In this document: one piece after another, positions 922 through 20,183 of the stretch
Numbering within the stretch: position 1 is the first letter of the stretch
Layout: each line of letters begins with the position of its first letter
Assembly: GCF_000455285.1 (NCBI RefSeq)
Contig: NZ_HG005294.1
Location: 1-50,289 of the forward strand
Length of the DNA: 50,289 bases
Direction: 5' to 3'
From: Candidatus Stoquefichus massiliensis AP9
GTDB lineage: Bacteria > Bacillota_I > Bacilli_A > Erysipelotrichales > Coprobacillaceae
The notes under the pieces: model-generated
What the model was told of the DNA's origin: nothing
The model's database searches: none
Seen by the model: the letters and a program-made list of their open reading frames with translations, nothing else
Program-made: the position numbers and the translations under genes

Positions 922-1622
922 CGCAATAAAAACAATTCATATTCATTAATTAAATTATTTTGATATTTTCTTCCTACTGTATAAATTTCATCATCAATCA
1001 TTATCACTTTTGATTTTTTTACGTCTTTTGTATAATTAAAATTAATAACAAGATTTCTTTCAATTTGAATAAGATCTCGATAATTTATCCCATTCATAAA
1101 CTTTTCTAAAGATGATATTATTGTATAATCTTGAGTAGTTGTTTTTACTAGAATATCATGACCTATAGATAAAATAAATATGATTTCACCTAATTTAATA
1201 GAAACTTTTCTACCCTTAGAAGTTATTATTACTTTAAATATGTTATTTATAAAGAAATCTTTAGCCTGCTTAAAAACTTTAGGTGCATCTGTTTCATATT
1301 TGGATTTTCTAATAAATTGAAAAAAGCCAATAGATAATGCAGGAAAAACAAACTCATCATGCAAAGATATGAATATAGTTATCATATTAGGAAATAATCT
1401 TTTTAGATGTTTTATTAAATTTAATCCACTATAATTTGTTTGCAAGTCAATATCAACAAAAATTATTTCAATGGAGGTCAGAGATAATATATTATAAAAA
1501 TCACTAGTAAAAATTAATAACTCTATTGGATCATTTTGATTAAGAAATGAAAAACATTCCAAAACATCACTTTTCATTTTTTCTATAAACGATAAATCAT
1601 CATCAGCAATAACAACATTCAT
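918..1622 (-). CDS. agrA: LytTR-family response regulator, AgrA-like
   Basis: 234 residues. An N-terminal receiver domain shows the acidic pair in VVIADDDLS and a phospho-acceptor Asp in IIFVDIDLQ. The C-terminal ~100 residues form a LytTR DNA-binding domain (KVIITSKGRKVSIKLGEI ... IQIERNLVINFNYTKDV), as in AgrA, ComE and FsrA. RBS GGAGGG precedes the ATG. It is the first gene of a two-gene unit with the kinase (ATGA overlap) and lies downstream of the AgrD-like prepeptide gene on the same strand. Predicted role: activates agr and target promoters in response to the peptide. Whether it controls the lanthipeptide locus cannot be read from the sequence. Confidence 0.9.
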   Translation of the reverse strand: MNVVIADDDLSFIEKMKSDVLECFSFLNQNDPIELLIFTSDFYNILSLTSIEIIFVDIDLQTNYSGLNLIKHLKRLFPNMITIFISLHDEFVFPALSIGFFQFIRKSKYETDAPKVFKQAKDFFINNIFKVIITSKGRKVSIKLGEIIFILSIGHDILVKTTTQDYTIISSLEKFMNGINYRDLIQIERNLVINFNYTKDVKKSKVIMIDDEIYTVGRKYQNNLINEYELFLLR

Positions 1623-1692
1623 AACTATCCCTCCATATTTTATTCTATACTATTCTATAAAATATTAACTCTGCCATTAAATAGTTTAATTC

Positions 1693-1730
1693 ATTATAAC
1701 ATATGAATTTCGGATTTACTAATTTGTAAT
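1693..1730 (-). promoter_or_regulatory. Candidate extended -10 promoter for agrA-agrC
   Basis: On the minus strand the sequence TGTTATAAT gives an extended -10 element (TATAAT at 1693-1698). The hexamer 17 bases upstream does not resemble TTGACA. A poor -35 with a good extended -10 is typical of activator-dependent or TG-n promoters. It lies about 70 bases upstream of the agrA start. Confidence 0.45.
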
Positions 1731-1841
1731 AAATTTATAATAAAATATAATTACTGCATAAAATAATTATCATTACATTTTTTAGGAAACGTGTGTATAT
1801 TTAACTTATGGAGAATTATTATATCAATTAGCAATTACTAA

Positions 1842-1881
1842 AAATCCTTCCAAATCAAAGGTTAATTTTCAGGAAAGATTT
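1842..1881 (-). terminator. Hairpin terminator after agrD
   Basis: Minus-strand arms AAATCTTTCC and GGAAGGATTT pair over ten bases (one G-U) around a 20-base loop, followed by a short T run. It begins just after the agrD stop codon, so the prepeptide is probably a single-gene transcript, with agrA-agrC read from a separate promoter. Confidence 0.5.
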
Positions 1882-1891
1882 TTAACATTCT

Positions 1892-2038
1892 TTAGTTTTT
1901 ATTTTTTAATTTATCTGGTTTCTTAGGATTATAAGGACCTATAAAAGAATATGATGATCTTGTTGCATATGCCAAAGAATTTAAAAAGTAACAAAAGAAT
2001 TTAGCAAACTTTTGGCTTAAAGATTTATTTGATATCAT
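1892..2038 (-). CDS. agrD: AgrD-like autoinducing peptide precursor (48 residues)
   Basis: A 48-residue frame that starts at ATG 2038 behind a good RBS (AGTAGGTG) and ends at 1892-1894. It has the AgrD layout: a basic, hydrophobic amphipathic N-terminus (about residues 6-22, including FAKFFCYFLNSLAYA), a short signal core (SSYSFIG, residues 28-34) and a hydrophilic tail starting PYNPKKP. The core contains no Cys, so AgrB-type processing would have to make a Ser lactone (as in FsrD/GBAP) rather than a Cys thiolactone. A five-residue ring Ser29-Ile33 is one possibility. The C-terminal tail is basic rather than acidic, unlike S. aureus AgrD. It lies beside AgrA/AgrC-like genes, with an AgrB-like gene 0.8 kb away on the other strand. 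Confidence 0.8.
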   Translation of the reverse strand: MISNKSLSQKFAKFFCYFLNSLAYATRSSYSFIGPYNPKKPDKLKNKN

Positions 2039-2290
2039 TTTTTCACCTACTTTCTATGAAATATTGTTAAATAATATGTTATATGATTTAAATGAAAAAT
2101 CTTAAAAATCAACTTAAAATAATTTATATTGACTATATAAAACACTAATCATTAAAATTATATGCAGGTTCATAAGTAACTAAACAAACCAAACCATATT
2201 AGGAAACAATATTTCTTTTCAAAATAAATTCTTTATTATGAAATAACTATAAAACAATCCAAATAAATCTTCAAGAATTATTTCATGTAA
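2039..2290. other. Intergenic region between divergent agrD and xre
   Basis: Together with the promoter and operator to its right, this 250-base AT-rich gap separates agrD (minus) from xre (plus). It must carry the agrD promoter, but I could not pick a convincing -35/-10 pair. TTAAGTTGATTTTTAAG-like sequence near 2100 could be a degenerate LytTR-type repeat. No gene is visible. Confidence 0.4.
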
Positions 2291-2320
2291 TTCGAATTTT
2301 GTTCATAAATAACATATAAT
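2291..2320 (+). promoter_or_regulatory. Promoter of the Xre-family gene
   Basis: TTCGAA at 2291-2296 and TATAAT at 2315-2320 are separated by 18 bases. The start site would fall near 2327, directly before the palindrome at 2331-2343. Confidence 0.55.
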
Positions 2321-2330
2321 GTTACAAATC

Positions 2331-2355
2331 GTCGCATTGCGACCTAGAGTCGCAT
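2331..2355. promoter_or_regulatory. Palindromic operator, probable autoregulation site of the Xre protein
   Basis: GTCGCATTGCGAC (2331-2343) is a perfect 13-base palindrome, and the half-site GTCGCA is repeated at 2349-2354. It is GC-rich in a very AT-rich gap and lies between the -10 box and the RBS of the Xre gene. That is where a repressor would block its own transcription. Confidence 0.6.
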
Positions 2356-2386
2356 AAAAAAGATTATTCTTGGTATGGTGATAAAA

Positions 2387-2674
2387 ATGAGTCATAGTAC
2401 TTTAGCAAAACAATTAAAAAAAATTCGTATTGAAAGAAAAATGAGTCAATATGATGTAGAAAAGGCGACAGGAATTGATAGAACTACCATATCAGCATAT
2501 GAAACTGGAATTAGGGAACCTAGTCTAAATAATCTATATAAACTTGCTGATTTATATTTAGTGAGCTTAGATTTTATGTGTGGCAGAATAAGCAAAAGAA
2601 CTATAGATGTGTCTAACATCAATGATCAACTTTATAAAAAAATTCTTGCACTGCTATACAATCATAATACCTAA
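2387..2674 (+). CDS. Xre/Cro-CI-type transcriptional regulator
   Basis: 95 residues from the ATG at 2387, chosen over the ATG at 2375 because GGTGAT sits four bases upstream. Residues ~5-62 form a helix-turn-helix domain of the HTH_3 type: LAKQLKKIRIERKMSQYDV, then ATGIDRTTISAYETGIREP, then LNNLYKLADLYLVSLDFMCG. No extra sensor domain is present. The palindrome directly upstream suggests autoregulation. It lies between agrD and agrB, which suggests it may set the level of autoinducer processing; that link is inferred. Confidence 0.9.
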   Translation: MSHSTLAKQLKKIRIERKMSQYDVEKATGIDRTTISAYETGIREPSLNNLYKLADLYLVSLDFMCGRISKRTIDVSNINDQLYKKILALLYNHNT

Positions 2675-2835
2675 TTATAAATATTTGATTCCTTATGTTG
2701 TACTATATTAAACATATACGATGCAGTATTTATTCTATAAATATTTACTAATCAATAAATAAATCTATGTAAATTGAAATAATTAGAAAGGAAATCTATA
2801 TAAATAAATTTACTATATGGGTTGTTTAGATACAA

Positions 2836-3366
2836 ATGAAATTAATAATTAATTATTTATTTAATAAAATCGGAGATAATCATTACGATAAAGAAGTATT
2901 ACTCTATGGACTTGAGGTTTTGGTGTATAATATATTTACACTTTTTCTATTGATAATAATTTCGTTGATATTTAAAAATTACTATTTTGGTTTTTTCTTT
3001 ATCCCTGTCTTCTCAATATTAAGAATTACAATAGGCGGATATCACTGTAAAACAATATATGGATGCACAACTTTAATGGCTGTTATTTACTCACTTACAA
3101 ATATTTTAATGCAGTTTAATTATTATAATTTAATTCTAAAAATAATAAGCCCCTTCCTTATTTTTGTTTTATTATTTATCAAACCGTCTGTAGAAAACAG
3201 AATAAATTTTGGGCAATTCGATGTTTACTATAAATATCTACTACAAGTTTTATTTATTTTATTTTATTTTGTTTTATTTAATTCAACTGCATTCTCCCCA
3301 GTATTTTCTGCATTACTTATTGTCGAAATAATGTATCAGTTATATTTAATTACTCATAAATTATAA
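2836..3366 (+). CDS. agrB: AgrB-like accessory gene regulator peptidase
   Basis: 176 residues, about five to six hydrophobic segments. The core motif ILRITIGGYHCKTIYGC contains His70 and Cys77, spaced by seven as the catalytic His77/Cys84 pair of S. aureus AgrB. The family cleaves AgrD at the membrane and forms the (thio)lactone. The upstream RBS is weak (an AGGAAA lies more than 30 bases before the ATG), and a short overlapping frame MGCLDTNEINN starts just upstream. Unlike classical agrBDCA operons, the gene is on the opposite strand from agrD, agrA and agrC and follows the Xre regulator. Confidence 0.88.
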   Translation: MKLIINYLFNKIGDNHYDKEVLLYGLEVLVYNIFTLFLLIIISLIFKNYYFGFFFIPVFSILRITIGGYHCKTIYGCTTLMAVIYSLTNILMQFNYYNLILKIISPFLIFVLLFIKPSVENRINFGQFDVYYKYLLQVLFILFYFVLFNSTAFSPVFSALLIVEIMYQLYLITHKL

Positions 3367-3510: not shown

Positions 3511-3834
3511 CTATATAAAAAGAAGTTAAGAGCATTGTCAAGAATTGAGCTGCTTATCATTGATGAATTTTTATTGACACCAACAACTACTGCTCAGCAG
3601 TCAGATATACTGGAATTACTTGAATTGAGATATAATAATCATTCAACAATATTTGCATCACCGTTTCTGCCACAGGGATGGCATCAGAATTTATGTGGCG
3701 CTGCAACAGCTGATGCAATTCTTGATAGAATAATTGCAAATTCTTATCTGATTCATATAAAAGGCTCTAAATCAATAAGAGCAAGAGAAAAAATATTTAA
3801 AGATAATCATAGTACATATTCGCCCATGATTTAA
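3511..3834 (+). pseudogene. IS21-family istB remnant (C-terminal part)
   Basis: The reading frame begins after a stop at 3508-3510 with LYKKKLRALSRIELLIIDEF, so no proper start exists. What remains is the C-terminal ~105 residues of an IstB/DnaC-like ATP-binding helper: LLIIDEFLL (Walker B region), QQSDILELLELRYNNHSTI, LPQGWHQNL and ADAILDRIIANSYLIHIKG. The Walker A part and the whole of istA are absent. It marks an old insertion between the agr locus and the lanthipeptide locus. Confidence 0.85.
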
Positions 3835-4054: not shown

Positions 4055-4672
4055 TTATAGACTCATTTTATTTATTATAAATCCTTCTGCATATTTCACA
4101 CATGATTTTATACCATTAAGCTTATCTTTAGCATCAATATATAACATTAAATCTTGGTTTCTCCTCATATACTTATCTATTTGAGAAGTATAATTTACTA
4201 ATATTTCTTTCTTTTTATCTTCATATTCTGTGATATCTATAAAGAGATTAGGTGTGAATTCAGCGCTTGTTAAAGATTCATAAAATATTAAATTTTTACA
4301 TATTGATTTAACCGATAAACAATTCTTAGCAATATTAATATGATCTTGATGAGTATCTTTAAAGTATTGGCAAAAAATTGTATCAATTTGGTGTTTTTTT
4401 ATTATATCTGTAATAAAGTCAATTGTTTCAGAACAGTGTAATAAATTCCCATCTTTAATTTCGCCTATTAACACTTCATCAATTTCCATACATAAAATAG
4501 CACTTCGAATTTCTTTAACTCTATCTTTATAAGTTTTTTGTTCCCAATTTCCTCCTTTTGTCATTACTAAATAAATAATTTTCTTCCCATGTTTTTTTAA
4601 TTTTAATAATGTTCCTATGCACCCTAATTCAATATCATCCGGATGTGCACCAATTATTAGTATATTATCCAT
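4055..4672 (-). CDS. PIG-L/LmbE-family N-acetyl-sugar deacetylase
   Basis: 205 residues. The zinc-binding motif AHPDDIELG is at residues ~9-17 and a second metal/active-site motif DTHQDH is near residue 109. This is the PIG-L family, which includes MshB, BshB and the teicoplanin GlcNAc deacetylase; these remove N-acetyl from GlcNAc-type sugars. It is the last gene of the lanthipeptide operon, 22 bases after the exporter, with RBS GGAGGAAATG. With a GT1 glycosyltransferase in the same operon, the simplest reading is that a GlcNAc attached to the peptide is converted to glucosamine. The substrate is inferred. Confidence 0.85.
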   Translation of the reverse strand: MDNILIIGAHPDDIELGCIGTLLKLKKHGKKIIYLVMTKGGNWEQKTYKDRVKEIRSAILCMEIDEVLIGEIKDGNLLHCSETIDFITDIIKKHQIDTIFCQYFKDTHQDHINIAKNCLSVKSICKNLIFYESLTSAEFTPNLFIDITEYEDKKKEILVNYTSQIDKYMRRNQDLMLYIDAKDKLNGIKSCVKYAEGFIINKMSL

Positions 4673-4694
4673 GTCATTTCCTCCAATCTACAGA

Positions 4695-6485
4695 TCATTT
4701 TAGTACAATTCCTTCACTTTGAATCTTGTACATTTTTGTATATATCCCTTCATTTGACAACAATTCATTATGACTACCTTCTTCAACAATTTCTCCTTTT
4801 TCAAGAACTAATATTTTAGTTGCGAAATTTACGTTTATAAATCTATGAGTAATAATAATATTAATTTTATTACTATTATTATCATACAATTGTTTAAATA
4901 TTTCAAATTCCGATAAGGGATCCAAAGAAGCTGTAGGTTCATCCAAAATCATACAATCGGAGTTTTTCATAAAAAGGCGTGATAATCCCAGTTTTTGCCA
5001 TTGTCCACCAGAAAGCTGAGTTCCGCCATCAAACCAATATCCTACCTGTTGATCATATTGCTCTGGTAAATGTGAAATAAAATCTGCTGCTGCTGCTTTT
5101 TTACTACTTTTTATAATTTTATCTAATCTTGTTAATTCACTGATACTTCCAAATCCTATATTATCTTTAACTGTAAACTGATATTTATTATAGTCTTGGA
5201 AAAGAGTTGCTAAACAATTACGTAATGACTCCTTTTTTATATCCCTAATCTCTATATCATTAATTGTAATACTTCCTTCATAATCATCATATAAACCATT
5301 AATTAATTTAATCAAAGATGTTTTTCCAGAACCATTTTCTCCAACAATTGCAAGTATTTCTCCTCTTTTTACTTCAAAATTAATATCCTTCAAAGCATAT
5401 TCTTGTCTATTAGGATATCTGAATGACACATTTTTAAACTTAATACTAAATATTTCTTTTATTTCTTTGAAACCATCTTTATTTGTAGGTTGTAATTTAA
5501 AGAAAACCTCAATATTCTCCAAATACAATGAATCTTTATACATATTAAAAAAACTGCTTACTAAATTTTGAATGGCACTTTCAATTTTAGATGTGGTATT
5601 AATATATGTTATGGTTGTTCCAACTAACAATATTCCCATGCTAGATTCATATATGGCAAGACAAACTATGATAAAAGTAACAATACAATTAGCAACTTGA
5701 TAAATTCCAGAAAAAGTGGTTTGTTTTTTTAAAATCATAATATTTTCATCAAAAAATTTCTGCCTTAAAACACTAAATTGTTGTATCAAATAATTTGATA
5801 AATTAAATAATTTCACCTCTTTAATATACTCATCTTTTATTAACAAATGGGCTATATACCATGATTTTCTCTCATGATTTGTTCTATTCATTAATACTTT
5901 ATACTCATTTTTACTTATTGACGTGAAATATTTTGCAGCAATACATGATAATAGAACAAATCCAAGGATTAGGCTAGGATGCCACAACATTAAAATGAAA
6001 AATGCAGAGATCAAATTTATAATCTGACTTATTATTGTCAATGCTGATGTAATTATACTAAATGGTCTAATTCCTATTTCCTGTTCTGCTCTTTGAATTA
6101 TGTCATAAATTTGTGGATTTTCAAAATCTTGCATGTCAAATTTTAAAGTTTCTTTTAAAAATTTTTCATTAAGTCCCAAGTATAAATATTCTTTATATTT
6201 AGACAAAAGGAAATTATATACACTATTAATAATTATAGAAAGTAAACTTAATAGTAGAAAAACACCTAACCTTTTTCCTATCATTTTATTGGCAATATTC
6301 AATTGAATATAGTTTATTATTTCTTGAGTATTTATCATAGATATATAAGATAATAGTACATTTAATATACTAAGAATCATACATATTATAATAATGAAAA
6401 TTTTCAAATCAGCTAACAATGAAAATATATATTTTAATCTCTGGATAAAAAGTAATATCTTATCTTTTCTTTTTGTTTTTTTCAT
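4695..6485 (-). CDS. lanT: ABC transporter (TMD-NBD fusion), lanthipeptide exporter LanT-like
   Basis: 596 residues: an ABC exporter half-transporter with a six-helix membrane domain over residues ~25-320 and an ATPase domain over ~345-590. Walker A is GENGSGKTS (~residue 383), the signature LSGGQWQKLGLSR (~488), Walker B MILDEPTASLD (~513) and the switch His is in IIITHR. There is no N-terminal C39 peptidase domain, so it is the NisT/SpaT type that exports the modified precursor with its leader still attached, and a separate protease must remove the leader. The start overlaps the preceding gene by 26 bases. Confidence 0.88.
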   Translation of the reverse strand: MKKTKRKDKILLFIQRLKYIFSLLADLKIFIIIICMILSILNVLLSYISMINTQEIINYIQLNIANKMIGKRLGVFLLLSLLSIIINSVYNFLLSKYKEYLYLGLNEKFLKETLKFDMQDFENPQIYDIIQRAEQEIGIRPFSIITSALTIISQIINLISAFFILMLWHPSLILGFVLLSCIAAKYFTSISKNEYKVLMNRTNHERKSWYIAHLLIKDEYIKEVKLFNLSNYLIQQFSVLRQKFFDENIMILKKQTTFSGIYQVANCIVTFIIVCLAIYESSMGILLVGTTITYINTTSKIESAIQNLVSSFFNMYKDSLYLENIEVFFKLQPTNKDGFKEIKEIFSIKFKNVSFRYPNRQEYALKDINFEVKRGEILAIVGENGSGKTSLIKLINGLYDDYEGSITINDIEIRDIKKESLRNCLATLFQDYNKYQFTVKDNIGFGSISELTRLDKIIKSSKKAAAADFISHLPEQYDQQVGYWFDGGTQLSGGQWQKLGLSRLFMKNSDCMILDEPTASLDPLSEFEIFKQLYDNNSNKINIIITHRFINVNFATKILVLEKGEIVEEGSHNELLSNEGIYTKMYKIQSEGIVLK

Positions 6486-6903
6486 AACTTCTTCTTTTTA
6501 GTTCTGCTTCATGTAAAATATTCCATATATTTTCTTCAGTATTAATAATTTTCTCCAAAACATTGTATGGATCATTAAAATTAATTTGATTATCTTTCAA
6601 TAACAAAATAGCCTTTTTAAACAATTCTTTTGATACATCATTTTTTGTTCCCTCAAAATCAATAATTTCATTATTAATTAAAATAAGTTTAAATAAAACA
6701 AAATGTTGATTTTCTCCCATAGCAAGAGGTACACTATTCCATCCCACATTAATCTGTTTAATATTAGAGAATGGTATACATTTATATGGCTCCACTTTTT
6801 TCATCTTTTCAAAAAAACTTATTGGACAATATATTTTTAATTCTTTTTTTTCATCATCTATTTCCCATCCATTCTTAACATTACCTATTAATAAATTTTG
6901 CAT
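6460..6903 (-). CDS. Unknown protein in lanthipeptide operon
   Basis: 147 residues, soluble, no signal peptide. I do not recognise it. The first ~95 residues alternate short hydrophobic strands and read like a small beta-rich domain (KELKIYCPISFFEKM ... FSNIKQINVGWNSVPLAMG ... HFVLFKLILINNEIIDFEG), somewhat like bacterial PH-type domains. The last ~50 are helical and end in a basic tail. It sits between the reductase and the exporter (2-base gap upstream, 26-base overlap downstream), so it is an integral part of the operon. Possible roles are an accessory modification factor or self-protection; neither can be shown. Confidence 0.75.
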   Translation of the reverse strand: MQNLLIGNVKNGWEIDDEKKELKIYCPISFFEKMKKVEPYKCIPFSNIKQINVGWNSVPLAMGENQHFVLFKLILINNEIIDFEGTKNDVSKELFKKAILLLKDNQINFNDPYNVLEKIINTEENIWNILHEAELKRRSYEKNKKKR

Positions 6904-6905
6904 AA

Positions 6906-7646
6906 TTAATTTCTCCTTTCATATTTATCCTCTTTTTTATTTTTTCTTTTGAAGTATAACACTTCATTTATACTATCATACATTAAATATTCATTTTTCC
7001 AATATTGAACTTCACTATCATCTACATGTTGAAATTTATATCTTGAAAAATGTTTATGATAATAATTAAAAACATTTTTTAACATATCAGGAATTTCTAA
7101 TTTATTTTTTAAAAATAACTTTATATAATTACTTATATTTTCACAATCATTCTCTTTTAATTCTATTTTTTTATCCAAACAACTTAATTTTAAGTCGAGT
7201 GATATCCCCAAATAGCTATAAATCATTTCCATATACCCTTCAACCATTTCTATTCCTGAATTCGAACTGGTTGTCAATAAAATTCCACTTTTACCAAGAA
7301 ATGGCATACGATGATTTAGATAAGCAATTCTATCTAATAATACCTTAAAATTTCCAGGGATATTATTAATATAAACTGGTACTGAAAACACAATTACATC
7401 TGCCCATTTAATATCATCAATAAATACTGTTTGATCATCTTTTAAAATACACATACCAGTTGTAAAACAACGCTGACAACCTAAACACACATTAATGTCA
7501 TAATCAGAAATATATTTATATACTATATTGACTTTCTGCTTTTCATTTTGAAATTTTTCATTCAATATATCTAGTACATACTTCGAAAAGACTTCATTTG
7601 TTCCAAGTTTTCTATTACTACAAACTAAAATAAATATATTAGTCAT
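6906..7646 (-). CDS. NAD(P)H-dependent FMN reductase-like flavoprotein, possible dehydro-residue reductase
   Basis: 246 residues from the ATG at 7646, preferred because AAGGAG lies seven bases upstream; longer in-frame starts would run through the hairpin. It is a flavodoxin-fold protein: FILVCSNRKLGTNEVFSKY is the phosphate-binding region, the Cys-rich loop CLGCQRCFTTGMCI typical of iron-sulfur-flavoprotein/multimeric-flavodoxin relatives follows, then VIVFSVPVYINNIPG. It lies directly after lanA. Known LanJ enzymes reduce Dha/Dhb to D-Ala/D-Abu but belong to other families. A reductase encoded next to lanA therefore suggests, by inference, reduction of dehydro residues in the core peptide. 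Confidence 0.8.
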   Translation of the reverse strand: MTNIFILVCSNRKLGTNEVFSKYVLDILNEKFQNEKQKVNIVYKYISDYDINVCLGCQRCFTTGMCILKDDQTVFIDDIKWADVIVFSVPVYINNIPGNFKVLLDRIAYLNHRMPFLGKSGILLTTSSNSGIEMVEGYMEMIYSYLGISLDLKLSCLDKKIELKENDCENISNYIKLFLKNKLEIPDMLKNVFNYYHKHFSRYKFQHVDDSEVQYWKNEYLMYDSINEVLYFKRKNKKEDKYERRN

Positions 7647-7665
7647 ATTTTTCTCCTTAAAGAAG

Positions 7666-7694
7666 TATCGCCTATCTAGTATAGATAAGCGATA
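7666..7694 (-). terminator. Intercistronic hairpin after lanA (attenuator or processing site)
   Basis: TATCGC and GCGATA, then TATCTA and TAGATA, form a 13-bp stem with one mismatch and a three-base loop between the lanA stop (7703) and the reductase RBS. There is no T run behind it on the minus strand. Such hairpins after lanA commonly let only part of transcription through, or stabilise the lanA mRNA, so that the precursor is made in excess. Confidence 0.7.
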
Positions 7695-7702
7695 CAATCA
7701 AA

Positions 7703-7906
7703 TTAGCAATCGCTACTCTCTGTATAGTTAGATCCAGTAGTAAGTCCAGTAATAATTTGTGATGATGCAGTGAACAAACTTACAGTTGCTTCAATACAAT
7801 ATCCTGATGATGTAGTAACCCATGTTAAACTCATTGGTGATGGTTCACCTTCATTGCCTTCAGACCCAACTAAACCCAACTCAAAATCTTTTAACTTTTC
7901 AGACAT
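7703..7906 (-). CDS. lanA: Class I lanthipeptide precursor LanA (divergent)
   Basis: 67 residues behind the strongest RBS of the operon (AAGGAAGGAGATG). The leader begins MSEKLKDFELGLVG; DFELGLVG fits the F-x-L box that LanB and LanC recognise. An acidic, Gly-rich stretch (SEGNEGEPSP) follows, then a Ser/Thr-rich core starting MSLTWVTTSSGYC and ending TESSDC. The putative core has about 18 Ser/Thr but only two Cys (residues ~37 and 67), so at most two thioether rings are possible and most Ser/Thr could stay dehydrated, be reduced or be glycosylated. No NisP-type cleavage motif and no protease gene are visible. Confidence 0.85.
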   Translation of the reverse strand: MSEKLKDFELGLVGSEGNEGEPSPMSLTWVTTSSGYCIEATVSLFTASSQIITGLTTGSNYTESSDC

Positions 7907-7957
7907 AATTTTTCATCTCCTTCCTTTTAATTTTATTTAAACAATTGTTATAATTGT

Positions 7958-9046
7958 TCAAATCATGAAAAATTTAAAATATAAATCTATTGAATCACAT
8001 GTTATTTGTTTTAATAAGGACTGAGCTAAAAATCCATTAACTACGGAACTTTCTTTTGCTGTCATGTCAGCACTTTTTTTAACATTTTTATATCTTTTAA
8101 TTATAATATTGTTAAATTCATTTTTTTCTTCCAAACTTATCATTTTTTTATAATATAAATTTTCTATCATTCTAATAATTCCAGAAATTCCAGAACATAC
8201 ATTTGAAGTTATTAGATCTCTATCAACTAAACAAATTAATTCCTTCATTTTTTCTTTTTCATAATCATAAGAAATATTTAAGATGGTCTTCGAAATTATC
8301 AATGTATATAATGTTCCTAATTTGCCATTACCCCAATTTAAATCATTTCTATTAATAATTTTTTGATTCAGTAAATTATCGTACACTTCTTTTTGCAGTT
8401 TTAAAATTATTTCCTTTTTTAAATTTAAATTTAGACAACTACTATTAGCAAGAAATAATAATAATCCTGAATATCCATGTGCTATTCCAGTAGGGATAGC
8501 TTCTTTATTAAATATTAAATATTTATCTATTTTCTTTATGATAATTTCTATAATGTTTTTTTCTAAGCCTACCATTTCTAAATAATTTAATATTCCTACT
8601 ATTCCTTTAAAGTAATCTAATATATTTGGAAAATTATTATTCTTTTTCATTATAATTAATCTAAAATCAACTTTTAATAAACTTTCTAAATACCATTTTA
8701 TTAATGTATTAATTTTTTCATATAATACATAATAATTTGAATCCAACTCTTTTAATACATAAAGCATATATCCTAATCCTGAATATCCATATCCTAAATC
8801 AAAAGATAGATGATAGGTATTTATTAATTTTAATAATAAATCAATTAAACTTCGAATTTCATTTTTATTATTAAAATATACTTTCTTATTTTCATCTTTA
8901 TCAATAGATACCAAACATATATAAATAACAACATCCCTATAAACTATAAATTTCTCTTCATCATTATCATAATGTATAATGATATCTTCATTATCAATTA
9001 ATATAGTGATTTTAGAACCACCAATATGTTTAATCTGTATTTTCAT
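7958..9046 (-). CDS. lanC: LanC-like lanthipeptide cyclase with altered zinc site
   Basis: 362 residues from the ATG at 9046 (17-base overlap with the glycosyltransferase gene). It is a LanC-type protein by its repeated Gly-rich helical hairpins: LGYGYSGLGYML (~residue 90), TGIAHGYSGLLLF (~188), NWGNGKLGTLY (~238) and NVCSGISGIIRMI (~284). The GxAHG His is present. The family's W-C-Y-G zinc Cys is Gly here (WGNG), and the C-H-G pair reads C-S-G, so two of the three NisC zinc ligands (Cys284, Cys330, His331 in NisC) are missing. The protein may be a structural partner in a LanBCT complex or a poor cyclase rather than a normal enzyme. Confidence 0.82.
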   Translation of the reverse strand: MKIQIKHIGGSKITILIDNEDIIIHYDNDEEKFIVYRDVVIYICLVSIDKDENKKVYFNNKNEIRSLIDLLLKLINTYHLSFDLGYGYSGLGYMLYVLKELDSNYYVLYEKINTLIKWYLESLLKVDFRLIIMKKNNNFPNILDYFKGIVGILNYLEMVGLEKNIIEIIIKKIDKYLIFNKEAIPTGIAHGYSGLLLFLANSSCLNLNLKKEIILKLQKEVYDNLLNQKIINRNDLNWGNGKLGTLYTLIISKTILNISYDYEKEKMKELICLVDRDLITSNVCSGISGIIRMIENLYYKKMISLEEKNEFNNIIIKRYKNVKKSADMTAKESSVVNGFLAQSLLKQITCDSIDLYFKFFMI

Positions 9047-10349
9047 TATCATCCATATACACTTTTTTAAAAACATTATTAACAACTTCTGATACATTAT
9101 CATAATCAAATGAAAGCTGCTTAAAATTTTCATCTATATTTATATCTAAAATTGATAATATATGGTTTTCAAAAAAATTCATTGATGAAGGAAATTTATA
9201 AGTTGTTATTCCAATTTTTAAATGTTCCAATATCATTCCATTTAATCGTTGTTCACTAGATATTGGAAATACTATCATTGGAGTCTTATAAAATATAGCT
9301 TCTTTTATGCTATTCATCCCTCCTGAAGTAATAAATATTGAACTATTTTTTAAGACAAATAATTGAGGCACTCTTTGTTTTACTAAAACCTTTTGATTAA
9401 TTCCCATTTCATTTACAATAGATTTTATTTGTTTTGTTGCCTTCCCACCAGAAATAATTATTTTATAGTTAGGTAATTTTTCATTTATTATCTTCAAAAT
9501 ATCACTATAATAGTTTATTTCTCTACTCATAAATGAACCTGTTGCTATATATATCAATTTATCCTTACAAAATCGTTTAATGGTATTACTTACATTTTTT
9601 TCAACAATGAAGTCACTTTTAGATGGTGAACAAATTAATATATTATTTCTATTATTGAGAATTGGCTGCAATGATTTCTGTGAGAATATAATATTGACTT
9701 TTTCTAATGGATCATATTGATAAAACGGTCTAATGTAATCTTCATTTAAATTACTAGCTGTCTCTTGATAAATTTTTTCCAAATGACTTTTAAAATTTAT
9801 TAAATATTCTTTTGGTACACTTAATAAATAGTCAACTATTCCCAAAAAGTTTGGTAAAATATAATTCCATGAATTCATTAAATAATCCCATGAATATAAA
9901 TTATTTGTAATATAACCAACAGTTTTAATACTTTCATATTTTTCTTTATTTTTAATTTTCATCCAATAGATATCTGTAGAATCTCTAAAGACAACATTTG
10001 GACAAAAAACATCAATAAATTCTTCGATTTTTAATGATACATCTTCATAATAGTTAAATATTCCGATTGAATCCTTTGATAAAAATTCGTCATAAAATTT
10101 TATAAAATCTTTTTCTTCTGCATAAGTAATCATTTTTTTATCTTTTCTCATTGCTTCTTCTCGATGCTTTTTTTTCCAATAGTTATTTGGATAAACAATA
10201 TAATTAATACAGTTTTCTTTACAGTAATCAATGTTCTGACTATTTATCAAACATACCACATCATGTCCCATACTTTGCAATTTAAGTATAAATGACTTAA
10301 TGGGAATAATATGACTTACTGCATAACTAGTAAGAAAAAGTATTTTCAT
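9030..10349 (-). CDS. GT1-family (UGT/MGT-like) glycosyltransferase
   Basis: 439 residues from the ATG at 10349, which overlaps the lanB stop as ATGA. It has a GT-B fold: the N-terminal acceptor half starts MKILFLTSYAVSHIIPIKS, and the C-terminal donor half has LIYIATGSFMS, then IIISGGK, LVKQRVPQLFVL and the nucleotide-sugar signature FITSGGMNSIKEAIFYKTP ... PISSEQRLNG. The family transfers sugars from UDP/TDP donors to small molecules, including antibiotics. Lying between lanB and lanC with a sugar deacetylase at the operon end, it probably decorates the lanthipeptide with an N-acetylated sugar. Donor and attachment residue are unknown. Confidence 0.88.
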   Translation of the reverse strand: MKILFLTSYAVSHIIPIKSFILKLQSMGHDVVCLINSQNIDYCKENCINYIVYPNNYWKKKHREEAMRKDKKMITYAEEKDFIKFYDEFLSKDSIGIFNYYEDVSLKIEEFIDVFCPNVVFRDSTDIYWMKIKNKEKYESIKTVGYITNNLYSWDYLMNSWNYILPNFLGIVDYLLSVPKEYLINFKSHLEKIYQETASNLNEDYIRPFYQYDPLEKVNIIFSQKSLQPILNNRNNILICSPSKSDFIVEKNVSNTIKRFCKDKLIYIATGSFMSREINYYSDILKIINEKLPNYKIIISGGKATKQIKSIVNEMGINQKVLVKQRVPQLFVLKNSSIFITSGGMNSIKEAIFYKTPMIVFPISSEQRLNGMILEHLKIGITTYKFPSSMNFFENHILSILDINIDENFKQLSFDYDNVSEVVNNVFKKVYMDDNENTD

Positions 10350-12790
10350 TTCTTCATCACTCCCTTTCCTTTTGAGAGAAAACATTTTAAGCTGTAATAT
10401 ATACTCTCTATATTAGCCATTGTTTCATTTTCAATAGATCTATTTATTCCAATAGTTCTATTAAAGTTCATATGAAAAAGACTTAATAGAATATCTTTAT
10501 AGTTTTCTTTTTCTACTATTATTTGCATTAAGGAATTTAACTTGTTAACTAATACTATATTTTCCTGATATATATATAAGTAATGTTTGTTATATAAACC
10601 TTTATAAATATCAAAAATTTTTTTTCTTAGCAAATCAGTTGTTTTATTTCTTTTATAATACTCTTTATATTCTTTTAATAATTCATCAACATCACAATAA
10701 TTTTCAATTTGTTTTAGTAAATCAAAAGTCCAAAAATAATATAAATCTTGTTTCAATTCTTTATCAGGATATGCATAATTAATGATTTTTTTACTTAACT
10801 CTGAGGTTATCATAAAAATTTCCTCAATTTTTTTTATAAGTTCTATTCCTCCATATCTATTAATCTCTGGCATATATTCATCAATAATGCACTTATCAAT
10901 AATTTTTTGTTTTTCTAAAGTAGCAATCATTTTATCAATTTTAGAAAACATAAAATTTTCTTTTTTTATTCTAATTCTAAGATGGCTTTCAGGATCTTTA
11001 TATCGTAAATAAAATATATTTCCTTTTATATCACCACTTGCAAATTCCTTTAAATGATTAATAATAAAATTATCCATATAATCTTCCTTCATATATAATT
11101 TTAAACTAATCCAATCTCTATTAACTTTGAAAATATGTTTTTTATACTTCGGAGATATACTATTCTCCCCACTACAATTTATTTGAAAAATTGTCTCAAA
11201 AATATATTTTTTGTTATTTTTTATTTCTGATAAAAGAAGTTCATCTTCGTTAAAATCACATGTCCTAATATTAATTTTCTTTTTTTGATTTAACTCTTTT
11301 CTTAAAATTTCTAATTCATCATCATTTGATAAATTTAAAATCAAGTAATTATCTTCCGTTCCACAATATACTATATTTTTCATACTATAATTAGTTAACA
11401 AACTATTTATTTCTTTTTTAAATATCAATATATTGTCAATTGTAAAATTTTCTTTTAATAATCGTATTTCAAATGTTTTTAATATGAAATTTTTATAAGT
11501 TATTTTCGGACAAATTTTTGACCCTTTAAAAGTTTCAAAAATTTGTGAAAAAATACTTAATAAATTTTTTTTTGAACATTGATCAATAGTATAAATAGAT
11601 TTTATAATATCAGGTGCGAAATTTAAGTTCGTCATATTGTTAATAGTAAAATTAATAATGTGTCCATTTAACCCATTAATGAATTTTAAAATTCCATTTA
11701 TTGGACAAATATAAACATCATTTATAGATAATCTTTTCTTTCCTTCGACTATTGTTTCACATCCATATTCTAAATAATATTCACTATCACTATAGCAATT
11801 TAATACATTAGCAATTCGTGATTGTTTAGGAAAATAGCATAACTCAACATTGTCAAATTGATTATTAATAGACTTAATTTTACATCTTGCTTTGTAAAAT
11901 CTACCAAGAGCTTTATATGACATATCACTACCAATTAATGGAGTAACTATGTATTTATAAGTATCCTTAAACTTAAAAATATTTAAAGATATCTCAAAGG
12001 AATTTTCAGCTAATTTACTATTTTCATTATTATAATCTATTTTTATATCAGAAAGATCTAAATGATTATTATTTATTTTATAAATATAATTATTTATTTT
12101 ATTAAATAGATACTTGTCTTTTTGTGGAAATCCAATACCACTTATTTCATCAAACACATCAATAACATTTACTGAATCATAATTATATTTTTCTATATAT
12201 TTCATATAGTATCCTTCTAAAACATATTTATTATTAGCAAACATATTTAAAAAAATAACAAGTTCATTTATATCCTTTTTTATATTTGAATCTAAATTAA
12301 TTTTTTCTTCATTATACAAATCTACAGATACATAATTTTCTGATTCACTTAATTTTTTCAATTTTGATGTTATTTTAAAATAATCTTGTAATCCTTTTTG
12401 AATTTTTGATTGATTATAATTACTTATATCATTTTTTATTTTTTCAAGTTCTTGTAATTCTATATTTAATTCGTCTTTATACAATAGTATAACACTAATC
12501 AAATTGTCTATGTTTCGTTCATAAAGAAGAGATAATCTTAAATTTGAAATTAAAAAACCATTTTTTAATAATTCATTTATATAGTTATATATTATATTAT
12601 CTTCTATCTCATTGTATTCTTTTCTTATTATCTTAATAATTGTGTTTATATCCACAAAATCTTTTTCGGCAATTTCTTGTATTATTAAAAATGGTTTATG
12701 ATTATTAATTAATATTTGAGTGTTTTTCAAAGCAGTTTGATTATGAAAGCAATCAATCCACTTATTCAAAATTAATTCTTCATTTAACAA
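10346..12790 (-). CDS. lanB: LanB dehydratase, major C-terminal part (after frameshift)
   Basis: Read here from a TTG at 12790, but the frame is open further upstream (IGKKLRVKVNNSLLLNEE), joining the N-terminal fragment across the A8 tract. It contains the rest of the tRNA-Glu-dependent glutamylation domain and, from about residue 540, the elimination domain: DWISLKLYMKEDYMDNFI, FYLRYKDPESHLRIRIK and the C-terminal helical repeat region. With one base added in the tract, the gene spans 10346-13215 as 956 residues, the normal LanB size. Known role: glutamylates Ser/Thr of LanA from Glu-tRNA and eliminates glutamate to Dha/Dhb. The stop overlaps the glycosyltransferase start. Confidence 0.88.
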   Translation of the reverse strand: MLNEELILNKWIDCFHNQTALKNTQILINNHKPFLIIQEIAEKDFVDINTIIKIIRKEYNEIEDNIIYNYINELLKNGFLISNLRLSLLYERNIDNLISVILLYKDELNIELQELEKIKNDISNYNQSKIQKGLQDYFKITSKLKKLSESENYVSVDLYNEEKINLDSNIKKDINELVIFLNMFANNKYVLEGYYMKYIEKYNYDSVNVIDVFDEISGIGFPQKDKYLFNKINNYIYKINNNHLDLSDIKIDYNNENSKLAENSFEISLNIFKFKDTYKYIVTPLIGSDMSYKALGRFYKARCKIKSINNQFDNVELCYFPKQSRIANVLNCYSDSEYYLEYGCETIVEGKKRLSINDVYICPINGILKFINGLNGHIINFTINNMTNLNFAPDIIKSIYTIDQCSKKNLLSIFSQIFETFKGSKICPKITYKNFILKTFEIRLLKENFTIDNILIFKKEINSLLTNYSMKNIVYCGTEDNYLILNLSNDDELEILRKELNQKKKINIRTCDFNEDELLLSEIKNNKKYIFETIFQINCSGENSISPKYKKHIFKVNRDWISLKLYMKEDYMDNFIINHLKEFASGDIKGNIFYLRYKDPESHLRIRIKKENFMFSKIDKMIATLEKQKIIDKCIIDEYMPEINRYGGIELIKKIEEIFMITSELSKKIINYAYPDKELKQDLYYFWTFDLLKQIENYCDVDELLKEYKEYYKRNKTTDLLRKKIFDIYKGLYNKHYLYIYQENIVLVNKLNSLMQIIVEKENYKDILLSLFHMNFNRTIGINRSIENETMANIESIYYSLKCFLSKGKGVMKK

Positions 12791-12825
12791 AAGAGAATTA
12801 TTTACTTTTACTCTAAGTTTTTTTC

Positions 12826-13215
12826 CTATTTTTTTTCAACCTCTATTAAAAACTTCGTTATCCATTCATAATCAAGTAATAGATTTTTCTTTAAACTATT
12901 ATATTGAAAACTATATGTTTTTTCACATGAAGTTTCATCTATAAATTTTCCAAGGGATACAAATGAGTTTATTCCAAATGGTGTTGTACGGATAGATGCA
13001 CGTTTAATATACTTAATCAACGATATAATACTCTGCCTCTGATTTTTTTGCTCTTCATATTCATTATTGATAGAGTTATACAATGATATCGAATTAATGG
13101 CTAAACTTTCCATAAAATTATTTTTAGTATATTCTAAAATATTATTACATTCATTAAAAATATCATAATTCAGTAATGGTGTTCTCACATAAAAATCATC
13201 TTCAATATAATACAT
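12826..13215 (-). CDS. lanB: LanB N-terminal fragment (before frameshift)
   Basis: 129 residues from the ATG at 13215, chosen because AAGAAGGAG lies seven bases upstream; longer starts lack an RBS. The sequence has LanB N-terminal hallmarks: DDFYVRTPLLNYDIF near the start and KRASIRTTPFGINSFVSLG (the R-x-T-P-F/Y-G motif) about 90 residues in. It ends LLDYEWITKFLIEVEKK at a TAG directly after eight A. Inserting one A continues the frame as EKKIGKKLRVKVN into the next segment, exactly as expected of an intact LanB. It is the first gene of the lanthipeptide operon. Confidence 0.85.
   Translation of the reverse strand: MYYIEDDFYVRTPLLNYDIFNECNNILEYTKNNFMESLAINSISLYNSINNEYEEQKNQRQSIISLIKYIKRASIRTTPFGINSFVSLGKFIDETSCEKTYSFQYNSLKKNLLLDYEWITKFLIEVEKK
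12829..12836 (-). other. A8 homopolymer at the LanB frameshift
   Basis: On the coding strand GAAAAAAAATAG: eight A end the upstream frame at TAG. Nine A would read E-K-K-I-G-K-K-L and restore the full gene. A second A7 run lies at 12818-12824. Homopolymers of this length are sites of strand slippage, transcriptional slippage and sequencing error. Confidence 0.85.
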
Positions 13216-13389: not shown

Positions 13390-14021
13390 GTATGCTTACT
13401 AAAATAGTCAACTTAAGTGAAGCTTATATATCCAAATTTCAGGAACGATTATCAAATTATTTAGAAGAACTTATTCATGAATTAAAAAGAGAAATCAGAT
13501 TAGATATTGTATATTGGGATAATATAGTCATAAACATAGCGATGAATCGAACCTAGCTTAGGTTTTATGGCAATAAAGATATTGCACTATATATAGCACA
13601 TAGCCATAATGATAAGGAGAGATTGATTTAAGATAACGTCTTAATGTCATTAAACACATTCAATGAAGGTGAATATGAAAATCTATGTGATACAAATAAA
13701 TACTATGGAGAAACAGAAAAGACATTACTCAAAAGATTGAAGAAATATAAAGATAATTATTTGATATGGACATATAATAAAGAAATCCCATTTAGTAATA
13801 ATATTAGTGAAAGGTCACTAATATCATCAAAGACAAAATGAAAGTATGAGGACGATTTACAAATCTCAAAAATGCATTATATTTTGCGAAAATAGATAGT
13901 TATATAGAAACAGAACATAGACATGGGAATGAATTCAACACTACCCACTAAAAAGAACATTAGAAGTGAATTTAATAAGAATAGAAGAAATGAAAGAACA
14001 AGATTGCGTATTTCATGCTTA
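13390..14021 (+). pseudogene. IS66-family transposase remnant
   Basis: Decayed coding sequence on the plus strand with several frameshifts and stops. Recognisable pieces in order: LSEAYISKFQERLSNYLEEL and LDIVYWDN (near 13420-13520), LGFYGNKDIALYIAHSHND (near 13555-13615), KTLLKRLKKYKDNYLIWTY and PFSNNISERSLISSKTKMKV (13718-13850), then NLKNALYFAKIDSYIE. These match the DDE core and C-terminus of IS66 TnpC. Start, termini and the accessory genes are missing. Confidence 0.85.
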
Positions 14022-14095
14022 ATAATTGTCATCTATGTCCAAAAATTTACATTTAAAAGAAAAATATGCTAAATTATAGACAGGAGGAGAGAAAT

Positions 14096-14497
14096 ATGAA
14101 AAAATTATTATTTTCAAGTATGTTTGCTTTAGCATTAATGTTAGGAGCAATTGGCTGTGTATCTGCTTATGATTGGACTCCAGGTGAAACTTTTATTATC
14201 CCTTCATGGGGTAAAATGAGTGATCCATCAGAAAATTCTATTGCAAAAACAAAGAATGACTCTTATGGATTTATCGAAGCCCTTAGAGATACTTCGTCAC
14301 TTAGTAAGTATGGAGATTATGTCTATGATGGTTCTTCTACGAGATTTTCTGATGACTATTATAAAATCCATGTAAACAATTATACAAAGGTTTATTATAA
14401 GTATAATGAGTCACGAAGCACTTTCAGAATGAGAGCTTGTGGAGAGAATTTCGAACCATCTTCTGGAACAGCAATTGTTGCAAGATTCTGTCAATAG
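14096..14497 (+). CDS. Small secreted protein with dedicated ABC operon
   Basis: 133 residues from the ATG at 14096, which has RBS AGGAGGAG six bases upstream; the in-frame ATG at 14066 lacks one. The N-terminus MKKLLFSSMFALALMLGAIG is a signal peptide; cleavage after VSA (before YDW) is likely, although AIGC could also act as a lipobox. The mature ~108 residues are Tyr/Ser-rich with two Cys (in MRACGENF and ARFCQ) that could form a disulfide. I do not recognise the family. The gene is followed by a partial terminator and an ABC transporter operon, an arrangement common for exported bacteriocins or toxins with immunity pumps; that role is inferred. Confidence 0.75.
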   Translation: MKKLLFSSMFALALMLGAIGCVSAYDWTPGETFIIPSWGKMSDPSENSIAKTKNDSYGFIEALRDTSSLSKYGDYVYDGSSTRFSDDYYKIHVNNYTKVYYKYNESRSTFRMRACGENFEPSSGTAIVARFCQ

Positions 14498-14611: not shown

Positions 14612-15415
14612 ATGAAAACAAATTTAAATCTATTCAAAAATATTATTCTTTTAATAATAATAATAATTTCTGGTACTTTTTTTGGATTAAATATGTTAAA
14701 TGGAATTTCTGTAAATGAATTTAATGAAATATACTTAAAGTTATGGGAACGTGGATTAAATGGAATATTTCTGGTATTGTATCTTATTATCATTTTTGAA
14801 CTTTCTGTTAGTAAATCATATTCATACATTGATAATAAATTTGACAAAAATATCATAATAAGAGTTGGATACAAAAAATATTATTTACAAACAATTATAA
14901 CAATATTTTTAAGTGCTTTTATTTATTCTTTGATAATTCATATTTCAATAATTCTTCTTATGAATATGTTTCATACTTTTGACTTTACAACTATCGCTAA
15001 AGAAAGATTCCAGCATATATATTTTTCTAATAATACATATTTAAATATTTCTATATTTGTATTATTATCAAGCACAGGAAGTTCAATTTTCTGTACTTCA
15101 ATATACCCATTCTTATACTTTATTAAGAACAAATATCTTTGTAAATTTATTCCTGTATTAACTTTTTTCTGTACAATTATTTTATCCTTTATCATATCTC
15201 CTATTTTTCAAAATTTTTTACTAAGTATAACTGGAAATCTTGAAAAAGCAAAAACAATATTATGTAGTATTATACCATCTAGTCTTATTGAGCCTGGTTG
15301 CGGTTGGTATTCTTATGCACTACTAGATTTTGTTTGTGGCGCATCTATTTATATTTTAATAATGTTATTTGGTTTTTGTCTTTTAAAAAGATATAGAGGG
15401 ATTCATGATGATTAA
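14612..15415 (+). CDS. Polytopic membrane protein, ABC-2-like permease
   Basis: 267 residues with about six hydrophobic segments: residues ~8-28, 50-66, 88-112, 145-165, 180-200 and 240-258. The arrangement (long loop after helix 1, a cytoplasmic segment SYSYIDNKFDKNIIIRVG after helix 2) fits ABC-2-type permeases, but no diagnostic motif is visible. It is the first of three membrane proteins around one ATPase at 15939-16547. The next gene overlaps its end by 11 bases, so all are one operon. Confidence 0.7.
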   Translation: MKTNLNLFKNIILLIIIIISGTFFGLNMLNGISVNEFNEIYLKLWERGLNGIFLVLYLIIIFELSVSKSYSYIDNKFDKNIIIRVGYKKYYLQTIITIFLSAFIYSLIIHISIILLMNMFHTFDFTTIAKERFQHIYFSNNTYLNISIFVLLSSTGSSIFCTSIYPFLYFIKNKYLCKFIPVLTFFCTIILSFIISPIFQNFLLSITGNLEKAKTILCSIIPSSLIEPGCGWYSYALLDFVCGASIYILIMLFGFCLLKRYRGIHDD

Positions 15416-15923
15416 TATAACTATATACAAAAATTATAAAAAGATATCTATTTTATATTTAATATGCTTTATTTTCCTATATTGGCAACTTATAAGTGCG
15501 AAAAATATCCCAATTGATTTAATAATAGTTATACCAATGCAATTTTGTATGACTATAAATAATATTTTTATTTTCCAGATTATAAATAGAAATAAAATCA
15601 TGAATCAAATTCAAAATTATATATTATTAAGGATTAACAAAGAGTCCTATACAAACACACTTATCAAAATAGCTATTTTGGATACAATTATAAATATTAT
15701 TGTTATTTATATTTTCCCCATTTTAATCTTCCATAATAATATTCAATCATATAGATTATATTTTCTATTCGTTTTAATAATTTCTCTTATATTTTTTATA
15801 TATGAAATGATTATTACTACAACATTATTTATTAAAAATACACTTATTAAATTTATTTTATATACTATTCCATTTATAGCTAATATAATAATACAATTAT
15901 ACTATTTTCAAAATTTTTATTAG
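15405..15923 (+). CDS. Membrane protein, probable ABC transporter subunit
   Basis: 172 residues, hydrophobic, about five segments. A charged stretch (NRNKIMNQIQNYILLRINKE) follows the second segment and resembles the cytoplasmic coupling region of the neighbouring proteins (RISKKRYTILIIKK at 16534-17019). The start codon lies inside the preceding gene's end (11-base overlap). Its exact family cannot be told. Confidence 0.65.
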   Translation: MMINITIYKNYKKISILYLICFIFLYWQLISAKNIPIDLIIVIPMQFCMTINNIFIFQIINRNKIMNQIQNYILLRINKESYTNTLIKIAILDTIINIIVIYIFPILIFHNNIQSYRLYFLFVLIISLIFFIYEMIITTTLFIKNTLIKFILYTIPFIANIIIQLYYFQNFY

Positions 15924-15938
15924 AAGAGAGGAACAAAT

Positions 15939-16547
15939 ATGATTACATTTAAACACATTAGTAAAACATTTAATAATTCTATAGTTTTAAAAGATATTGA
16001 TTTCACTATTAATGAAGGAGAAATTATTAGAATAAGTGGAACAAATGGATGTGGTAAATCAACCTTATTAAAAATTGCTACTGGTTTATTAAAACCATCT
16101 TCAGGAGAAGTAATTTATAATAAATTTAGTAATGAAATAGGAGCACTCATTGAAAATCCATCATTCATTGAAAATGAAACAGCAATTTATAATCTCAAAT
16201 TTCTTTTTAATTTGAAAAACAAATTCGATGAACCAAAAGTTTCTCAGCTACTAACTGAATTTAAATTGAATCCATACTCAAAAATACCTGTCAAAAAATA
16301 TAGTGTAGGAATGCGACAGAAACTAGGTATTATACAAGCTATAATGGAAAATCAGAAAATAATATATTTTGATGAACCTACTAGGGGATTAGATGAAGAA
16401 AGTGTAGAACTATTTTATAACTTAATAAATAATTTAAATAAAAAAGAAAACAAAACGATTATTATATGTTCACATGAACCTTTAGAAAAGATCTGCTTTA
16501 ATAAAGAATATGTAATTGCTGATGGTATACTTAATGAAAAAGTATAA
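15939..16547 (+). CDS. ABC transporter ATP-binding protein
   Basis: 202 residues, a single short nucleotide-binding domain. Walker A is GTNGCGKST (~residue 35), followed by the D-loop/signature region VKKYSVGMRQKLGIIQAI (a degenerate LSGGQ: YSVGM) and Walker B IIYFDEPTRGLDEES, with the switch His in IIICSHEP. RBS AGAAGAGAGG. This YSxGM-type signature is common in bacteriocin immunity/efflux ATPases such as LanF/BcrA. It energises the three membrane proteins around it; the transported substrate may be the secreted protein at 14096 or a toxic peptide. Confidence 0.88.
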   Translation: MITFKHISKTFNNSIVLKDIDFTINEGEIIRISGTNGCGKSTLLKIATGLLKPSSGEVIYNKFSNEIGALIENPSFIENETAIYNLKFLFNLKNKFDEPKVSQLLTEFKLNPYSKIPVKKYSVGMRQKLGIIQAIMENQKIIYFDEPTRGLDEESVELFYNLINNLNKKENKTIIICSHEPLEKICFNKEYVIADGILNEKV

Positions 16548-19370: not shown

Positions 19371-19741
19371 TAAAGACTTTGCTCTCTATTCTTTTGTTTG
19401 AAATACATAGGATATCTAATCTTGATGGCTTCCTGAAAATATTTGGCATACTCACAGTTAAATAATTCATATGGTGTTGTTTCTTTTGATTTAGAATAGC
19501 CATTCCACATATTGAATCCAAAGAGACATGCCTTATATGAACCGCTTGTCTGCCAAGGCTTGTTTAACCCACTACTTTTAATAACATCCTTATCAAAATC
19601 AAACAAGTCATAGACATGATCCCTTGTATTACAATCAATACCTAAAACATAAAATAATGCCTGATGATAGGAATCCTCATATCGGCTCTTTTTCATACAT
19701 TCCTTGTAGAATCTTGAATGTTCCTTATCTTTAAATAACAT
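19370..19741 (-). CDS. DUF6075-like ICE protein
   Basis: 123 residues from the ATG at 19741, with GGAAGTG upstream; the longer frame has no RBS. It is a soluble, mixed-charge protein with FKDKEHSRFYKECM, ALFYVLGIDCNTRDHV and SYKACLFGFNMWNGY. I recognise this as the small DUF6075-type protein often found beside CwlT/VirB4 in Tn1549-like elements, from memory and without a search. Function unknown. Confidence 0.7.
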   Translation of the reverse strand: MLFKDKEHSRFYKECMKKSRYEDSYHQALFYVLGIDCNTRDHVYDLFDFDKDVIKSSGLNKPWQTSGSYKACLFGFNMWNGYSKSKETTPYELFNCEYAKYFQEAIKIRYPMYFKQKNREQSL

Positions 19742-20179: not shown

Positions 20180-20183
20180 CGTG

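Follow-up and report, generated by a model that had tools for sequence, protein, structure and literature searches.

Two glycosylated lanthipeptides have been described in recent reviews. Those of 2023 and 2025 name NAI-112, of class III, and the 2023 review also names cacaoidin, of class V; neither names a glycosylated member of class I (PMC10373908, PMC12328550; open-access literature). This agrees with the first-pass annotation of the DNA studied here, which named glycosylated lanthipeptides of other classes and no class I example with such a gene set. The NAI-112 cluster encodes a glycosyltransferase of its own, AplG (PMC10373908), as is proposed below for a different locus, but NAI-112 depends on a class III synthetase, its sugar is a deoxyhexose N-linked to Trp, and no deacetylase is mentioned. 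Cacaoidin, a lanthidin, is glycosylated on Tyr and rich in D-Ala and D-Abu that are ascribed to a LanJ reductase (PMC8068269), whereas its cluster has no LanB and contains GT2 and GT4 enzymes, rhamnose genes, a cysteine decarboxylase and an F420-type LanJC. The glycocins, among them sublancin and glycocin F, are likewise ribosomal bacteriocins with an O- or S-linked sugar, which is GlcNAc in glycocin F (PMC10373908), but they have no LanB or lanthionine, their S-glycosyltransferases are of the GT-A type, and again no deacetylase is mentioned.

A second line of comparison is the bacillithiol module BshA/BshB1, in which transfer of GlcNAc is followed by deacetylation by a PIG-L enzyme. Mycothiol, teicoplanin and paromamine also involve GlcNAc transfer and PIG-L deacetylation. 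The acceptors in these modules are small molecules or antibiotic scaffolds rather than a LanA peptide. Full-text searches of the open-access literature that combined PIG-L with RiPP terms returned, among the papers listed, none with PIG-L.

The locus described here shares with nisin-type class I systems a two-domain LanB related to NisB, an F-D-L-D-like leader box, an S-P-x motif before the core, the LanC fold and an ABC exporter without a peptidase domain. It departs from them in that its LanC lacks zinc ligands, its core is devoid of basic residues, with Ser and Thr in excess, a GT1 glycosyltransferase, a PIG-L deacetylase and an FMN reductase are added, no S8 LanP is found in the genome, and agr genes adjoin. 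The cluster is genuine and recurs elsewhere, as a variant of the class I type that has a dedicated glycosyltransferase. On balance, and with somewhat better than even confidence, we read it as a glycosylated class I lanthipeptide-type cluster whose product would bear an amino sugar, with agr genes beside it.

Operon layout and recurrence

We analyzed a window of 50,289 nucleotides, part of a 3.5-Mb genome that is 99% complete, and called the genes of the operon and its flanks with Pfam and NCBIfam profiles. The operon runs on the minus strand from position 13215 down to 4055, in the order lanB, GT1 glycosyltransferase, lanC-like gene, lanA, FMN reductase, unknown gene, ABC exporter and PIG-L. 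All of the genes named in the first-pass annotation were recovered, in the order given there. The glycosyltransferase gene overlaps lanB by 4 nt (ATGA) and the lanC-like gene by about 17 nt. A 2-nt gap lies between the FMN reductase gene and the unknown gene, the latter overlaps the exporter gene by 26 nt, and 22 nt separate the exporter and PIG-L genes. This spacing is of the single-operon type. The lanA gene is free on both sides, where about 51 and about 56 nt separate it from its neighbors. The cluster limits first proposed (4055 to 13215) enclose the core genes but leave outside the agr genes (918 to 3366) and a likely immunity ABC set (14612 to 17019).

The LanT-like ABC exporter (4695 to 6485, minus strand; PF00664, PF00005) has no C39 peptidase domain. 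The unknown protein of 147 aa (6460 to 6903, minus strand) was seen at 4/6 loci, including that of genome G048, where its gene lies upstream on the opposite strand. Its structural model is weakly PH-domain-like and had no PDB match with E < 0.001.

For comparison, we searched 43 genomes of the bacterial family, 395 genomes of the class and 392 genomes of the phylum; genomes are referred to below as G000, G017, G027, G048 and G074, with G027 having two loci, C11 and C12. Four other genomes together hold five further loci with the gene set of the window, a recurrence that is more than chance. The genes for the glycosyltransferase, LanA, FMN reductase and ABC exporter occur together at all six glycosyltransferase loci, and it is on these six loci, from one bacterial family, that the whole comparison rests.

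The precursor and its probable maturation enzymes

The lanA gene (7703 to 7906, minus strand) encodes a 67-aa precursor whose translation, alignment and composition show a core that contains 18 Ser/Thr residues and two Cys, lacks Lys, Arg and His, and ends in the tail N-Y-T-E-S-S-D-C. The leader is nisin-like. Its box reads FELG in the window and FDLD, FDLN, FDLQ or FNLD in the relatives, and S-P-x precedes the core in the alignment; the precursors thus combine a leader box of the F-(N/D)-L-D type with a Ser/Thr/Cys core, as in class I. A C-terminal tail of the form (N/G)-Y-T-E-(S/N)-...-C is common to all precursors except that of G027:C12, which is different and shorter, and neither the Tyr nor the last Cys varies in any of the nine sequences of the precursor alignment. 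No S8 subtilisin-family peptidase (LanP) was found in G000, G017, G027 or G048.

Several further features of the precursors were considered. The G027:C11 locus carries four lanA genes in a row (11481 to 12305), three of them near-identical, and the first has one Cys only. A relationship between the G017 and cacaoidin cores, which share SSAPC, was rejected as not significant: shuffling gave 0.03 for the best among five cores and 0.93 for that of the window. The labionin pattern S-x2-S-x2-5-C was, by eye, not conserved across cores. Formation of AviCys was rejected as well: the cluster has no LanD, and in 4/4 genomes checked the matches to PF02441 map elsewhere than the lan operons.

The lanB gene is not a single open frame in the window, a point missed by the first-pass annotation. 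Its N-terminal part (12826 to 13215, minus strand; ATG at 13215, with an open reading frame that can begin at 13254) covers positions 4-99 of the PF04738 profile. These first ~130 codons end with a stop at 12826, directly after an A8 run at 12829 to 12836 on the minus strand (T8 on the plus strand). The remainder, in another frame (10346 to 12832, minus strand), holds the rest of the Lant_dehydr_N domain and a SpaB_C-type elimination domain (PF04738, PF14028, TIGR03891) and is related to NisB. Across the two parts, both the glutamylation and the SpaB_C elimination domain of a class I LanB are found (PF04738, PF14028). Also kept are the stretches R-x3-R-T-T-P, H-x-R-x-R and E-x2-R-Y-G-G, which we take to be those known from NisB. 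The G017 LanB is one intact frame of 960 aa that both halves match end to end, so the break is either recent, an assembly error or the effect of a slippery run; the lanB frame is intact at four other loci. Unless the break is accounted for by transcriptional slippage, phase variation or a sequence error, the copy assembled here, with its frame-broken lanB, may be silent. Five further A8 or A9 runs lie within the window operon, where slippage or phase variation is possible.

A flavin reductase had been noted before, and the gene is indeed present (6906 to 7646, minus strand); what had gone unrecognized is its LanJB-like nature. The protein belongs to PF03358 (2e-17), the LanJB family, with a C-x2-C-x2-C-F motif in the alignment, and among solved structures it is closest to SP1951 of Streptococcus pneumoniae (PDB 1sqs). 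An FMN reductase gene is present at all six glycosyltransferase loci, and we regard the window copy as a LanJB-type candidate. LanJB enzymes of the FMN reductase family reduce Dha and Dhb to D-Ala and D-Abu, with D-residues proven in class II only at the time of the reviewed data (PMC7268733, PMC8068269). As the core has 18 Ser/Thr against two Cys, it is plausible that dehydro residues left over are reduced here.

The most surprising feature of the cluster is its zinc-poor LanC. The LanC-like protein (7958 to 9046, minus strand) has the LanC fold (PF05147, 8e-12), and it does not have the complete Cys, Cys, His zinc site of class I: in the alignment with NisC, W-G-N-G stands opposite WCYG and V-C-S-G opposite ICHG. 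Two of the three NisC zinc ligands are gone. The same number is lost in G017 and G048 and all three in G027:C11, while G027:C12 keeps all. The four zinc-poor loci are the loci whose precursors carry the Y-T-E...C tail; at the G074 locus, LanC was not seen. The Asp and His assigned to the NisC active site are retained in the LanC-like proteins.

Because the change is common to four loci, three of which have an intact lanB, it is not a matter of local decay. Precedents exist for LanC folds without zinc. ThurKC, a class III LanKC, also lacks zinc ligands, although its cyclase is joined to kinase and lyase domains in one protein, whereas the one described here is a stand-alone protein of a LanB system; class III LanKC cyclases without zinc still cyclize (PMC10604976). 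In Clostridium acetobutylicum, an agr-linked LanM-like protein without zinc is dispensable for production of the signal peptide (PMC10301443). Given these two cases, a metal-free cyclase and a changed role are both possible for the LanC-like protein.

Glycosyltransferase and PIG-L deacetylase

The glycosyltransferase (9030 to 10349, minus strand; 439 aa) belongs to family GT1 (PF00201, 4e-11; TIGR01426). Its model has the GT-B fold (pLDDT 86), with a VIA Z of 30.5 to YjiC (rmsd 3.0, 347 residues aligned), and resembles YojK, YjiC and OleD; the relatives are UDP-binding. As expected for GT1, the N-terminal catalytic H13 and, for the C-terminal UDP-binding stretch, G-G-x-N-S-x2-E and E-Q-R-x-N-G are invariant. 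The His of the usual GT1 H-x-G-G is replaced by Ser or Thr here (S-G-G, A-G-G, T-G-G). The donor sugar of a GT1 enzyme is not readable from sequence. No sugar-nucleotide gene was obvious in the loci, which makes a housekeeping UDP-sugar the likely donor.

Full-length relatives occur in G017 (56% identity), G048 (42%), G074 (33%) and twice in G027 (31-32%). In the 43 family genomes, all five LanB genes (5/5) lie within ~2 kb of a glycosyltransferase gene of this group, and all four LanB genomes are among the five with the glycosyltransferase (hypergeometric P 4e-5, physical adjacency not counted). The sixth glycosyltransferase copy, on a 4.4-kb contig of G074, adjoins lanA, FMN reductase and exporter genes; LanB was not detected on this short contig. 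No LanB above the Pfam cut-off was found outside the family in the 395 class genomes sampled, and no glycosyltransferase of this clade outside the family in the 392 phylum genomes sampled. Viral contigs gave no relative of the enzyme, and plasmid and phage collections gave distant matches only. That the glycosyltransferase is a dedicated part of the lanthipeptide pathway, as first suggested, is well supported, since LanB and the glycosyltransferase are always neighbors in the sampled family.

The PIG-L de-N-acetylase (4055 to 4672, minus strand; PF02585, 1e-19) scores 103 bits with TIGR04001, below the cut-off, and no signal peptide was seen. The family motifs AHPDD and H-Q-D-H (H-x2-H) are invariant in three homologues, and the nearest solved relative is BshB1 (6p2t, 9e-17). 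PIG-L family members occur in 26/43 family genomes as different paralogues, whereas those more than 60% identical number four copies in three genomes (window, G017 and G027 twice), all on lan contigs. Their position varies: PIG-L lies 31 nt upstream of lanB in G017, between the exporter and glycosyltransferase genes in G027:C11, with an ATGA overlap with the latter, and ~15 kb from the glycosyltransferase gene in G027:C12. Relatives in G141 and G266 (36% identity) sit among other glycan-type genes, not RiPP genes, as judged by eye from gene types, and PIG-L matches on viral contigs are 22-37% identical over long matches. We rejected a role in bacillithiol synthesis: BshC (PF10079) is absent from G000, G017, G027 and G048, with control genomes positive, which makes a bacillithiol deacetylase unlikely.

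The first-pass annotation had tied its reading to a glycosyltransferase/PIG-L pair confined to RiPP loci. We looked for such a pair in loci without RiPP genes across the genome comparison and found none. The pairing of LanB with the glycosyltransferase is constant in the family, but a close PIG-L is absent from two of the six glycosyltransferase loci (G048 and G074). PIG-L is probably part of the pathway. Transfer of GlcNAc followed by deacetylation, as originally proposed, is still the best reading of close PIG-L relatives at these loci only, ATGA coupling in G027:C11 and the lack of BshC, tempered by the same two loci. With PIG-L beside the glycosyltransferase, GlcNAc would be the natural choice of sugar, giving glucosamine after deacetylation.

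Proposed pathway, rival readings and flanking genes

The gene identities, co-conservation, residue losses and precursor features established here suggest a pathway for which we infer every reaction, the donor, the acceptor and the order of steps. LanB would dehydrate the LanA core at many of its 18 Ser/Thr residues, and the LanJB-type FMN reductase would turn some of the resulting Dha and Dhb into D-Ala and D-Abu. The LanC-fold protein without its zinc site may assist ring closure or replace it via a metal-free route. GT1 would move GlcNAc from housekeeping UDP-GlcNAc onto the peptide, the likeliest acceptor being the conserved Y-T-E...C tail. A cytosolic PIG-L would then strip the acetyl group to leave glucosamine, and the ABC exporter would secrete the product. 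Glycosylation of the peptide is likely, and we hold it with good confidence; an amino sugar made by deacetylation is somewhat favored. On the other side, lanthionine formation itself becomes doubtful with the zinc site lost. Less probably, the product of the Y-T-E...C branch might depend on LanB and yet fall outside the classic lanthipeptides, with Dha and Dhb mostly converted to D-amino acids or used in metal-free closure and with glucosamine on a tail Tyr, Thr, Ser or Cys thiol, adding positive charge to a core that has no Lys, Arg or His.

The identity of the sugar is the point on which the nearest rival turns: the peptide could receive a sugar other than GlcNAc, such as glucose, with PIG-L at work in some other place or on a different group. 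Enzymes that use UDP-glucose are among the solved GT1 relatives, two of six loci have no close PIG-L, and the place of PIG-L differs between loci; the confinement of its close relatives to these loci, one of them overlapping the glycosyltransferase gene by ATGA, argues the other way and leaves this account rather unlikely. The glycosyltransferase might instead protect the producer, capping the peptide intracellularly as OleI does oleandomycin, with the sugar removed outside. We find this very improbable, as no glycosidase was recognized at the loci, a possible immunity ABC set is present, and a deacetylase would be hard to explain if the sugar were only a temporary cap, even though the fold is of the macrolide glycosyltransferase type and the self-immunity model NF000362 of OleI gives a weak match (36 bits against a cut-off of 700).

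It is also conceivable that the window operon is decaying, with lanB broken, the LanC active site lost, no peptide made and the glycosyltransferase and PIG-L as remnants. The frame break, the lost zinc ligands and a position on a mobile element with insertion remnants all fit such a history. Against it, the remaining genes are open and keep conserved motifs, the two lanB halves are similar over their full length to an intact homologue, and the LanC change recurs where lanB is whole; decay therefore appears quite unlikely.

If the preferred pathway with GlcNAc transfer and deacetylation is correct, the product would be a glycosylated class I lanthipeptide whose amino sugar comes from a two-enzyme module (GT1 and PIG-L) fed by a housekeeping sugar nucleotide, and the module could be transferable to other LanB-type peptides. 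It would also point to a family of stand-alone LanC proteins that work without zinc or have another task, for which comparison of zinc-free G027:C11 with zinc-bearing G027:C12 in one genome offers a test of the role of the metal.

Genes of the agr type accompany all six glycosyltransferase loci, which suggests quorum control of the cluster. In the window, they encode an AgrA-like LytTR response regulator (918 to 1622, minus strand; PF04397, PF00072), an AgrD-like peptide of 48 aa (1892 to 2038, minus strand) that matches a G048 peptide and has no Pfam match, and AgrB (2836 to 3366, plus strand; PF04647, 1.4e-18). On the other side of the operon, an ABC ATPase (15939 to 16547) and three membrane proteins, all within 14612 to 17019 on the plus strand and with a Pfam match (PF00005) for the ATPase only, are likely a LanFEG-like immunity set. 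Between the operon and this set lies a gene for a small protein (14066 to 14497) that appears to have a signal peptide and matches no Pfam family. Short broken open reading frames on both sides of the operon (3535 to 3834 and 13392 to 14030) have, by eye, the look of transposase remnants. Downstream, positions 17781 to 30310 encode a lysozyme/CHAP protein, a TraG/VirB4-type ATPase and a coupling-type protein, which places the cluster on an integrative conjugative element. Within this element, a group II intron reverse transcriptase (27032 to 28849) is 74% identical to copies on Enterococcus faecium plasmids.
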